56,814 nucleotides of DNA from Acidimicrobiia bacterium (GTDB lineage: Bacteria > Acidobacteriota > Vicinamibacteria > Vicinamibacterales > UBA2999). Both the position numbers and the translations under genes were made by a program. Where the stretch lies: the NCBI GenBank assembly GCA_016871255.1, contig VFZH01000006.1:1-56814 (forward strand), given 5' to 3'. This document shows, in pieces, positions 30,284 through 33,987 of this stretch. Position 1 is the first letter of the stretch. Every line of letters starts with the position of its first letter. A model generated the notes under the pieces. The model was not told the origin of the DNA, made no database searches, and was given only the letters and a program-made list of their open reading frames with translations.

Positions 30284-30480
30284 TCACGATCGTCCGGTGT
30301 CACTCTGGAGAATCCGCTCCACGCCCGTCAGCAGATCGTCGGCGATGAAGTCGGCCGAGAGCCCGTCCGGCGGGTTCGCTGCCTCGGCACGTGAACCTGG
30401 TCAAGCCGCGACGGGTAGCCGACTTCGTCGACGAGTGTCCCGTCACGATCGAGGAACACCGCGCGGTTCGGTGTGGCCAT
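30284..30480 (-). pseudogene. gmhB: Heptose bisphosphate phosphatase (GmhB/HisB-N type) remnant
   Basis: ATG at 30480 opens MATPNRAVFLDRDGTLVDEVGYPSRLDQVHV, the HAD-III N-terminus of GmhB with both nucleophile aspartates. After about 30 codons the homology stops. In another frame the C-terminal tail PPDGLSADFIADDLLTGVERIL follows and ends at 30284. About 100-plus central codons and the frame have been lost. The remainder of the gap up to malQ (30481-30658) shows no further gene. The remnant is convergent with gmhA. Confidence 0.7.
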
Positions 30481-30658: not shown

Positions 30659-32275
30659 ATGGAGCGCAAGGCCCAGGTGCGGCGCGCTGGCGTCAGCGTC
30701 CCGCTCTTCTCCCTGACATCCACCCGCAGCTGGGGCATCGGCGAAATTCCCGACATCGTTCCGTTCGCGCAGTGGCTCGAGGCGGCGGGCCTGACCGCGC
30801 TCCAGATCCTGCCGATCACCGAGGTGCCCGCCGGCGAGACGTCGCCGTACTCGCCGTTGAGTGCCATGGCGATCGACCCGCAGTTCATCGCACTGGCGGA
30901 CGTGGAGGATTTCGCCGCTGCGGGAGGTGAGGCTGCTCTCGGCGCCGCCCTGCGCGCTGACCTCGATACCGCGCGGCAGGCTCGGGCGATCGACTACCGG
31001 ACACTACGGCGCGTGAAAGGTGTCGCACTCCGTCGGAGCTTCGATCACTTCCACTCCACGGAGTGGGCCGGCGGGAGCGGGCGCTCGAAAGCGCTCGCGG
31101 CGTTCGTCGAGGAGCAGGCATGGTGGCTGGATGACTACGTGCTGTTCCGGGCGCTCCACGATCGTCACGGCGGCGCGCACTGGACCTCGTGGCCGGAGCC
31201 GATCCGGGGTCGCGAACCCGGGGCGATGGCGGCCGCGCGCCAGGCGCTCGCCTCCGAGATTCGCTACTTCGAGTACCTGCAGTGGCTGGCGGCCGGGCAA
31301 TGGGCGGCGGCGCGTGCGGCCGCGTCCGGCCTCGCCATCTACGGCGACCTGCCGTTCATGGTCGGCGGGCACAGCGCTGACGTGTGGGCGCGGCAGGAGG
31401 AGTTCCGGCTCGACGTGTCGCTGGGTGTCCCGCCGGATGCGTTCAGCAAGGATGGTCAGGACTGGGGCCTGCCGATCTATCGGTGGGACGTCGTCGAGGC
31501 GGGCGGCTTCGCGTGGCTCCGGCAGCGGGCGCGCCGGAACGCGGAGTTGTACGACGGCTACCGCGTCGATCACCTCGTAGGCTTCTACCGCACCTACTAC
31601 CGGACGTCTGGTGGGAACGGTCACGAGGGGACGTTTACGCCAGATACCGAGGACGAGCAGACCGCCCTTGGCGAGCGTGTGCTCGACGTGTTCCGGGAGC
31701 CCGGCGCGCACATCATCGCGGAGGATCTCGGTCTGGTGCCGGCGTTCGTCCGCGCGTCGCTGGCGCGGCTGGGGGTAGCCGGCTTCAAGGTGCTGCGCTG
31801 GGAGCGCGAGTGGGACACCCCGGGCCAGCCGTTCATCGATCCCGTGCGCTACCCCGCCGTGTCGGTTGCCACGTCCGGCACCCACGACACCGAACCGCTG
31901 GCCATCTGGTGGCGCAACGCGCCTGAGGACGAGCGTGCTGCCGTCGAGGCAATCCCAATGCTCCGTCAAGTCCTTGACAGGGGTCTGACCCGGGTCAGAC
32001 CCGGGTCTGACCCGGGTCAGACCCCTGTCAAGGACTTGACGATCGAAGTGCGCGACGCGCTGCTGGAGGTCCTGTTCGCGGCCGGGTCGGAGTTGCTGCT
32101 GCTGCCGGTTCAGGACCTCTTCGGCTGGGCGGACCGGATCAACGTGCCGGGCACCATGGGCGGTGCGAACTGGACCTGGCGCCTGCCATGGCGGGTGGAT
32201 CAGATGGACGCGGAGCCTGTAGCCATCGCGCAGGCCGGTCGCCTTAGGGCATGGTCGGGACAGCACGGTCGTTGA
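30659..32275 (+). CDS. malQ: 4-alpha-glucanotransferase with in-frame palindromic insertion
   Basis: 538 residues, GH77. It transfers alpha-1,4-glucan chains in maltodextrin/glycogen metabolism. Catalytic motifs are present: YRVDH (nucleophile Asp), IIAEDLG (acid/base Glu) and SGTHDTE (third Asp). ATG 30659 gives the normal N-terminus (AGVSVPLFSLTSTRSWGIG). Near the C-terminus 26 residues (VLDRGLTRVRPGSDPGQTPV and neighbours) come from a 78-bp perfect palindrome inserted between AIPMLRQ and the conserved helix IEVRDALLEVLF. The frame is kept, so the enzyme may still be active with a surface loop. It is convergent with glnS. Confidence 0.9.
   Translation: MERKAQVRRAGVSVPLFSLTSTRSWGIGEIPDIVPFAQWLEAAGLTALQILPITEVPAGETSPYSPLSAMAIDPQFIALADVEDFAAAGGEAALGAALRADLDTARQARAIDYRTLRRVKGVALRRSFDHFHSTEWAGGSGRSKALAAFVEEQAWWLDDYVLFRALHDRHGGAHWTSWPEPIRGREPGAMAAARQALASEIRYFEYLQWLAAGQWAAARAAASGLAIYGDLPFMVGGHSADVWARQEEFRLDVSLGVPPDAFSKDGQDWGLPIYRWDVVEAGGFAWLRQRARRNAELYDGYRVDHLVGFYRTYYRTSGGNGHEGTFTPDTEDEQTALGERVLDVFREPGAHIIAEDLGLVPAFVRASLARLGVAGFKVLRWEREWDTPGQPFIDPVRYPAVSVATSGTHDTEPLAIWWRNAPEDERAAVEAIPMLRQVLDRGLTRVRPGSDPGQTPVKDLTIEVRDALLEVLFAAGSELLLLPVQDLFGWADRINVPGTMGGANWTWRLPWRVDQMDAEPVAIAQAGRLRAWSGQHGR
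31964..32041. repeat. 78-bp perfect palindrome inside malQ
   Basis: Every base from 31964 to 32041 pairs with its mirror base. The outer arms are CGTCAAGTCCTTGACAG; the core is four tandem 11-mers alternating GGGTCTGACCC and GGGTCAGACCC. It has a multiple of three bases and no stop in the malQ frame. No target-site duplication is apparent. Confidence 0.95.
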
Positions 32276-32286
32276 GACCGACCGCC

Positions 32287-33987
32287 CTACCCCTTCGCGC
32301 GGATGCGCGCCCAGGAATCCTTCAGCGTGACGGTGCGGTTGAACACGAGCGCGCCGGGGCGCGAGTCCGGATCGAGGCAGAAGTACCCCTGCCGCTCGAA
32401 CTGGAACCGTGCGCCGGGTTCGGCCGCCGCCAGCGACGGCTCCAGCCGGCACCCCTCCATCGTGTCGAGCGAGTGCGGATTGAGGTCCTCCTGCCAGTTC
32501 TGGCGCTCCTCCGGTTCCTCCGACGCAAACAGCCGATCGTAGAGCCGCACGGTCGCCTCAACCGCGTGGGCGGCCGACACCCAGTGCACGGTGCCCTTCA
32601 CGCGGCGCGTGGCCGTCGCGCCGTTCAGTGATTCGGTGTCGTACGTGCACCGCAGCTCGACGATCTCGCCGGCGTCGTTCTTCACGACCCGCTCGCACTT
32701 CAGGATGTAGGCGTAGCGCAGCCGCACTTCGGCGCCGGGCGACAGGCGGAAGAACTTCTTCGGCGGGTCCTCCATGAAGTCGTCGCGCTCGATGTACAAC
32801 CCGCGCGAAAACGGCACCTGCCTCCTGCCCGCTGCCGGATCTTCCGGGTTGTTCACCGCCTCGACCTGCTCGACCCGCCCCTCGGGGTAGTTCTCGATCA
32901 CCACCTTGAGCGGCTTCAGCACGGCCATTGCGCGGCTGGCCCGGCGGTTCAGGTCTTCGCGAACGGTGTGCTCGAGCAGCGCCACATCGACGACGTTCGC
33001 CTTCTTCGCCACGCCGATGCGGCTGCAGAAGTCGCGGATGGCCTCAGGCGTGTATCCCCGCCGCCGCAGCCCCGCGAGCGTCGGCATCCGCGGATCGTCC
33101 CAACCGGCGACGTGCCCGCCCTCGACCAGCGTGAGCAGCTTGCGCTTGCTCATCACGGTGTAGTTCAGGTTCAACCGCGCGAATTCGATTTGCCGCGGGT
33201 GGTAGATGCCGAGCGCGTCGAGATACCAGTCGTACAGCGGCCGGTGATCTTCGTACTCCAGCGTGCAGAGCGAGTGCGTCACCCCTTCAATCGAATCCGA
33301 CTGGCCGTGCGCCCAGTCGTACATCGGGTAGATGCACCAGGTGTCGCCCGTGCGCTGATGTGATGTCTTGCGGATCCGGTACATGACCGGGTCACGCATG
33401 TTGATGTTGCCCGACGCCATGTCGATCTTCGCACGCAGCGTCCGCGAACCGTCAGGGAACTCGCCCGCGCGCATGCGGCGGAACAGGTCGAGGCTCTCTT
33501 CAGCGGGACGGTTGCGATACGGGCTCTCACGCCCCGGCTCGGTCAGCGTGCCGCGGTAGTCGCGAATCTGGTCCCCCGTCAGCTCATCCACGTACGCCTT
33601 GCCGGCGATGATGAGCTGCTCGGCCCAGAGGTACAGCTGCCCGAAGTAGTCCGACGCGTGGAACAGCCGATCGTCCCAGTCGAAGCCGAGCCACCGGATG
33701 TCGGCCATGATCTGGTCGACGTATTCCTGCGTCTCCTTCACCGGGTTGGTGTCGTCGAGCCGGAGGTTGCAGAGCCCGCCCATCTCCTCGGCGACGCCGA
33801 AGTCCAGGCAGATCGCCTTGGCGTGCCCGATGTGCAGGCAGCCGTTGGGCTCGGGCGGAAACCGCGTGCGCACCCGGGTGTGACGGCCGGCGCGCAGGTC
33901 CTCGGCGACGATCTCGCGGATGAAGTCCTGCGAGGCTGCTTCCGCAGGTTCGCTGGCAGGAGGCTGTGGAGGCACGGGGATCGCCAT
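32287..33987 (-). CDS. glnS: Glutaminyl-tRNA synthetase
   Basis: 566 residues, class I synthetase of normal length. Signature motifs are [14 protein letters not shown] (HIGH) near residue 43 and VMSKRK (KMSKS-type) near 269. The catalytic domain contains DDTNP and the acceptor-binding insertion; the C-terminal half has the two GlnRS beta-barrels that read the anticodon, ending in VTLKDSWAR. It charges tRNA-Gln directly. The N-terminus has a Pro/Ala-rich 20-residue extension. The stop lies 12 bp from the malQ stop. Confidence 0.97.

Follow-up and report, generated by a model that had tools for sequence, protein, structure and literature searches.

How did a perfect palindrome of 78 bp come to lie within the open reading frame of malQ, a gene for a 4-alpha-glucanotransferase? 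The question arises from a 56,814-nucleotide stretch of DNA, here called the window, which we analysed together with the remainder of the genome and its relatives. An earlier, sequence-only reading had proposed that the whole palindrome was an in-frame insert of recent arrival or under active correction. The palindrome itself is confirmed, and its origin can now mostly be explained, although not all of the 78 bp share the same history.

The palindrome and the linker of MalQ

The features on which the argument depends are listed below by window position.

30659..32275, + strand: malQ, GH77 4-alpha-glucanotransferase (Pfam E 2.7e-120); the frame is open through the palindrome
31958..32041, + strand: variable inter-helix linker of MalQ, 84 bp, from alignment with relatives and a structure model
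31964..32041, unstranded: perfect palindrome, 78 bp (39+39, spacer 0), from a repeat search
31964..31980, + strand: left arm, 17 bp, unique to this locus; encodes RQVLD, which aligns with RxRL at the end of the native helix in relatives
31981..32024, unstranded: core, four 11-mers GGGTCWGACCC in tandem, W being T, A, T and A in turn; probable dispersed REP-like element
32025..32041, + strand: right arm, 17 bp, exact inverted copy of the left; encodes VKDLT

Much of the initial description was borne out. The two arms of the palindrome (31964-32002 and 32003-32041) are 39 nt each and 100% complementary, with 0 nt between them and 0 mismatches, the four 11-mers alternate as described, and a single frame crosses them within a GH77 gene. 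This is by far the longest perfect even palindrome in the window; none of at least 18 bp occurs elsewhere in it, the two 22-mers detected being parts of the 78-bp one. Folded as RNA it reaches -81.6 kcal/mol (z -14.7 against 200 shuffles), and an Rfam search with three loci returned five matches, all to miRNA models and far under their gathering scores. The start codon of malQ at 30659 is a choice, the longest open reading frame beginning at 30473. An antisense open frame of 482 aa (window 31004-32452, - strand) also crosses malQ and yields the same array peptide because of the palindrome's symmetry; it is probably not a gene.

MalQ was matched in 38 of 40 genomes (our own and 39 relatives), our own giving a single match once the opposite-strand reading of the palindrome and an array at another place are set aside. 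In 29 relatives the linker spans 21-66 bp, 63 being the most frequent length; its 84 bp here amount to a net gain of about 7 codons over that length and not the 26 originally supposed. Removing all 78 bp would leave a linker of 2 codons, below the relatives' minimum of 7, while removing about 45 bp would leave about 13 codons, inside their range; the likely import is therefore the array of 44-46 bp. The 17-bp arm sequence was found nowhere else in the genome at up to 2 mismatches, so that only the array looks imported. The array occurs in none of the 29 relatives, and none of their linkers holds a palindrome of more than 16 bp. What stands of the proposed insertion is thus a lineage-specific, in-frame intruder, with a core of 44 bp that recurs across the genome and arms that do not. 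Two other readings were rejected: insertion of the whole 78 bp as the simplest account, on the linker lengths and the unique arms, and delivery of the arms by the element, on their confinement to malQ. Since an insert of precisely 44 or 46 bp would put the gene out of frame, we infer that a small adjustment in length came with or after insertion of the array.

A structure model built from a seven-sequence alignment (mean pLDDT 79) places the array at residues 441-456, counted from 30659, where it makes up the last part of a predicted helix (433-446) together with a loop (446-456) of pLDDT below 50. The next predicted helix, at 462-473, agrees with the earlier placement of the insert just before a helix.

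A dispersed 11-bp repeat and a single Y1 transposase

The core belongs to a repeat family. The 3.91 Mb genome contains 123 exact units of GGGTCWGACCC (66 + 57), against 0/0 for a reversed-pattern control, grouped in 43 arrays of 2-5 units (12 with two, 21 with three, 9 with four and one with five). Abutting 22-mers were found in only 3 of 193 genomes of the class (71 in our own, 20 in G088 and 9 in G048); single units are more widespread, with at least one in 131 of 162 genomes of the order and up to 128 copies. In 40 of the 43 arrays the first unit has a fourth G before it, and in 42 the last has a fourth C after it. The arrays are also polar: 24 begin with A and end with T, so that GGGGTCAG faces inwards at both ends, 6 show the opposite order (24 vs 6, p 0.0014) and 13 have like ends. 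That malQ carries the rarer order, T first and A last, counts against the explanation we favour. The genome has five further four-unit arrays that are perfectly palindromic over 44-50 bp, which weakens the argument that such symmetry is too unstable to be old; arrival, correction or both nevertheless remain a fitting account of it.

According to a rough, home-made codon-score gene caller, 38 arrays lie outside predicted genes and 5 within coding genes; by eye, 24 of the 38 intergenic arrays overlap a gene 3' end or lie within 50 bp of one. Many dispersed, mostly extragenic palindromic copies are a trait of GTAG-type REPs. However, the GT[AG]G foot was absent within 6 nt of the edge in all 43 arrays, and the family is therefore not classed as a GTAG REP; the CGTC tag of another REP type accompanies only 2 of 43.

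Two arrangements recur around the arrays. Beside 13 of the 43 (L003, L009, L022, L028, L033, L036, L037, L039, L040, L045, L046, L128 and L129) lies another short hairpin motif, GTACGCAG...CTGC, in many cases with TGTGGA after it; it is present also without arrays and is possibly an older repeat family which the arrays join. Ten pairs of arrays (L033, L035, L038, L042, L045, L050, L126, L127, L128 and L129) stand 65-132 bp apart around mostly unique sequence, four of them at 74 or 76 bp and two at 97 bp, and in several the first array starts 1-4 bp past a stop codon. The idea that such pairs are the ends of one conserved longer element was discarded, the ten inner sequences (65-132 bp) having only short matches and the GTACGCAG motif in common.

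The five intragenic arrays fall in four predicted genes, all supported by Pfam: malQ, a PF02636 methyltransferase, an ABC transporter (array at the C-terminal end) and a nitroreductase-family protein (two arrays). The loop comparison covered MalQ, the methyltransferase and the nitroreductase-family protein. In each the array encodes RVRPGSDPG or VRPGSDPG within a loop of variable length, and the peptide is absent from the aligned relatives (29 MalQ, 7 methyltransferase and 11 nitroreductase-family rows, one of the last being a fragment that leaves the loops uncovered). Three nitroreductase-family relatives (L227, L228 and L229) carry other repetitive peptides, GATSRHVGATSHPV and GTPGTPGTPG, at the array loop, as if this loop collects repeats.

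A candidate mobiliser is encoded in the same genome. The only match to PF01797 (Y1_Tnp), at C9:21831-22169, scores 49.6 bits against a cut-off of 23, and its gene lies between the arrays C9:21638-21670 and C9:22399-22431. The upstream array is 144 bp from the gene; the downstream one (L096:2096-2128) overlaps its end, the stop codon being a TGA inside the array. The protein marginally matches the NCBIfam model REP_Tyr_transpos (NF047646; 81 bits, cut-off 80) and resembles TnpArep (PDB 4er8, E 2.5e-4), and H60 and H62 of the HxH motif, as well as Y120, are invariant in 11 aligned homologues. It thus has the two marks of a RAYT, namely a Y1 HUH/Tyr domain that fits a curated model and a gene flanked by a dispersed repeat. 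At 200 aa, against a median of 235 in the 18 relatives measured, it is missing some 30 C-terminal residues present in most of them. Since its flanking arrays are of the forms T..A and T..T, no more than one of them can have the motif GGGGWSAS at its outer edge.

Of the 162 genomes of the order, 99 encode RAYT-like proteins, and 102 of the 110 loci collected have usable flanks (L101 and L106 are without a usable flank or stop codon). GGGTCNGACCC was found at the flanks of 9 of 30 RAYT loci of the order (our own, L097, L098, L099, L100, L102, L103, L104 and L124), among them the closest relatives of the transposase, which belong to other genera; both flanks carry it in 9 of 102 loci. The exact palindrome is absent from the flanks of L105 and L107, two of the closest RAYTs with usable flanks, which counts against the favoured explanation. 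The non-palindromic half motif GGGGTCWGA appears at one flank or both in 41 of 80 RAYT loci of named genomes and at both in 18, usually in forward orientation on the upstream side and reversed on the downstream side; GGGGWSAS takes this orientation in 32 of 102 loci. In a tree of 110 rows, 12 of them flanked by the palindrome, 8 changes suffice to explain the trait, against 11.6 in shuffles (0/500 as low), and palindromic flanks are therefore clustered on the tree without forming a single clade. Genomes of the order with at least 10 units have a RAYT match more often (30/36 vs 69/126, counted by eye; Fisher p 0.0018), while the 6 of 36 genomes with at least 10 copies and no match again count against the favoured explanation. 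Short RAYT proteins go with palindromic flanks (11/24 vs 2/78, p 8e-7, with relatedness ignored, 8 of 110 loci dropped, and broken or mis-started frames of lengths 1, 1, 38 and 112 in the short class).

Two of these loci deserve separate mention. L107, from another family of the order, has tandem 13-bp arrays of GGGGTCAGACTCC and its reverse complement at 1389-1427 and 2878-2955, a sister form, with a different period, of the 11-bp arrays. The L104 protein, from the same family as our own genome, equals that of L140 over the compared stretch.

Origin of the array and its arms

Given the dispersed arrays, the Y1 transposase between two of them and the presence of GGGTCNGACCC at the flanks of its nearest relatives, the core is probably a non-autonomous palindromic element of REP-like type that belongs to the only RAYT/TIRYT-type transposase of the genome, is built in tandem at 11 bp and entered malQ in frame. 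The sequence-only reading was right about the intruder and missed that its core belongs to a repeat family tied to a transposase. By analogy with REPs, the transposase would act at the replication fork, where it would recognise the hairpins in their single-stranded form and move or copy them. Arrays may lengthen or shorten by steps of 11 bp, through slippage or through insertion beside an existing hairpin. In malQ, one copy would have landed in a loop able to tolerate it, its open frame reading ...TRVRPGSDPG..., and only versions that preserve the frame would have survived selection. Neither a target-site duplication nor an empty site was found at the DNA level, the closest relative compared belonging to another genus, and this too counts against the favoured origin.

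The arms are a separate matter. Locus-specific inverted arms of at least 5 bp touch 6 of the 43 arrays, against a mean of 0.57 for shuffled flanks (0/5000 as high); they measure 17 bp in malQ, 11 in L051, 7 in L038 and in L047 with one edge base skipped, and 5 in L022 and L044. Somewhat less surely than the steps above, the array hairpin may have led the polymerase to switch template, copying one flank onto the other and leaving perfect arms of 17 bp. The alternative is that the array landed in the centre of a palindrome already present in malQ, its arms being older than the array. The residues encoded by both arms agree with those of the relatives (R..L in the left arm, LT in the right), which favours array entry into an existing hairpin and is not what a one-sided copy would predict; the arms at array edges elsewhere suit this scenario too, and insertion targeted to hairpins would be natural for a single-strand transposase. 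Nevertheless, the lack of any palindrome longer than 16 bp in 29 of 29 relatives favours template switching, and a native, coding, perfect palindrome of 32-34 bp would itself need explanation. We consider the older palindrome possible but unlikely, and lean towards template switching beside the array hairpin.

Other accounts dispense with mobility. Arrays could be binding sites of a DNA-binding protein, as near-palindromic tandem sites spaced at 11 bp, about one helical turn, and ten pairs around unique sequence might suggest. Their positions are not conserved, however, with the 22-mer restricted to three genomes of the class; by the rough gene calls they favour gene 3' ends and even enter coding genes, and the genome's only Y1 transposase sits between two of them, all of which makes this account improbable. 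Alternatively, the insert might have been selected as a useful peptide or as an mRNA hairpin controlling malQ, given the nearly identical peptide TRVRPGSDPG in three enzymes and a very stable RNA fold. The likeness of the peptides follows from the open frame of the array, which dictates them; the loops concerned are variable, the malQ stretch is modelled at low confidence and no relative compared has kept the insert, so we regard selection of this kind as very improbable. Least credible is an assembly artefact in which a mis-joined palindrome supplied the inverted arm. The draft, of metagenome type, is in 243 contigs, and palindromes trouble assemblers, but the uninterrupted frame matches MalQ on both sides and similar arrays occur on many contigs with ordinary asymmetric flanks.

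A REP-like, transposase-linked origin of the array thus remains the reading we prefer. Beyond it, and distinctly speculative, a TIRYT-like lineage of this order may have lost its C-terminal tail while GGGGTCAG became a self-complementary hairpin amplifying as 11-bp arrays; these would serve as in-frame peptide cassettes in enzyme loops and would palindromise their flanks by template switching, a mobile repeat seeding growing perfect palindromes. We hold this scenario to be doubtful.

Comparison with known systems

Excerpts of the literature describe REPs inside genes in frame, as well as RAYTs with terminal inverted repeats (TIRYTs) and the motif GGGGWSAS (PMC3733652). Dispersed TIR families, some as dimers or clusters, and a sharply defined group in Acidobacteria are likewise described for TIRYTs and TIRtrons (Di Nocera et al. 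2013, PMC3733652; Quentin et al. 2018, PMC6006769). Most TIRYTs are assigned to subclass 2.1, near whose genes, in the excerpts of one survey, no REP-like sequences are reported (Quentin et al. 2018, PMC6006769). Template switching, as excerpted from PMC8794818, creates perfect hairpins and inverted arms in one event.

The present system resembles TIRYTs and TIRtrons, as excerpted from PMC3733652 and PMC6006769, in its Y1 transposase with putatively inverted flanking repeats and in GGGGTCAG, which the TIRYT motif fits. It differs in that the motif is a full palindrome repeated head-to-tail each 11 bp in 43 arrays, and in a 200-aa protein without the longer C-terminal tail of most relatives. 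An HTH-like extension at the C-terminus is a mark of TIRYTs and subclass 2.1. With REPs, REPINs and BIMEs and their RAYTs it shares short palindromes scattered mainly between genes and close to their 3' ends, one flanked RAYT, inverted pairs and occasional in-frame insertion in genes; unlike them, it has no GT[AG]G foot (0/43) and its 11-bp units are contiguous, while REPs are spaced and 20-40 bp long. Intragenic REPs and the Rickettsia palindromic elements (RPE) likewise lie in frame in conserved protein genes as 20-30 aa tolerated in loops, according to excerpts of PMC3733652; here the sequence is different, and a candidate mobiliser resides in the same genome. Template-switch hairpins of the kind outlined in PMC8794818 are here proposed only, beside a REP-like array in a bacterial gene. 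In a literature search outside subscription journals, the letters of the 11-mer and of GGGGTCAGA retrieved, among the matches listed, only unrelated eukaryote, virus and bench work, and no 11-bp REP array was among them.

These comparisons tie the unusual palindrome of a metabolic gene to a family of transposases in which the larger subclass is reportedly without REP-like repeats. They also outline a natural series, from single motif through spaced hairpins to 11-bp arrays, in which to study by what steps terminal repeats turn into dispersed hairpins and how these are tolerated in coding genes, and the locus-specific arms are a test case for template switching next to mobile hairpins. TIRYTs and in-frame REPs are already known, and what is new is the 11-bp tandem palindromic form rather than the kind of system: one that stands between TIRYT and REP, with a RAYT-type protein and a GGGGTCAG-type motif, yet palindromic and in tandem at 11 bp.
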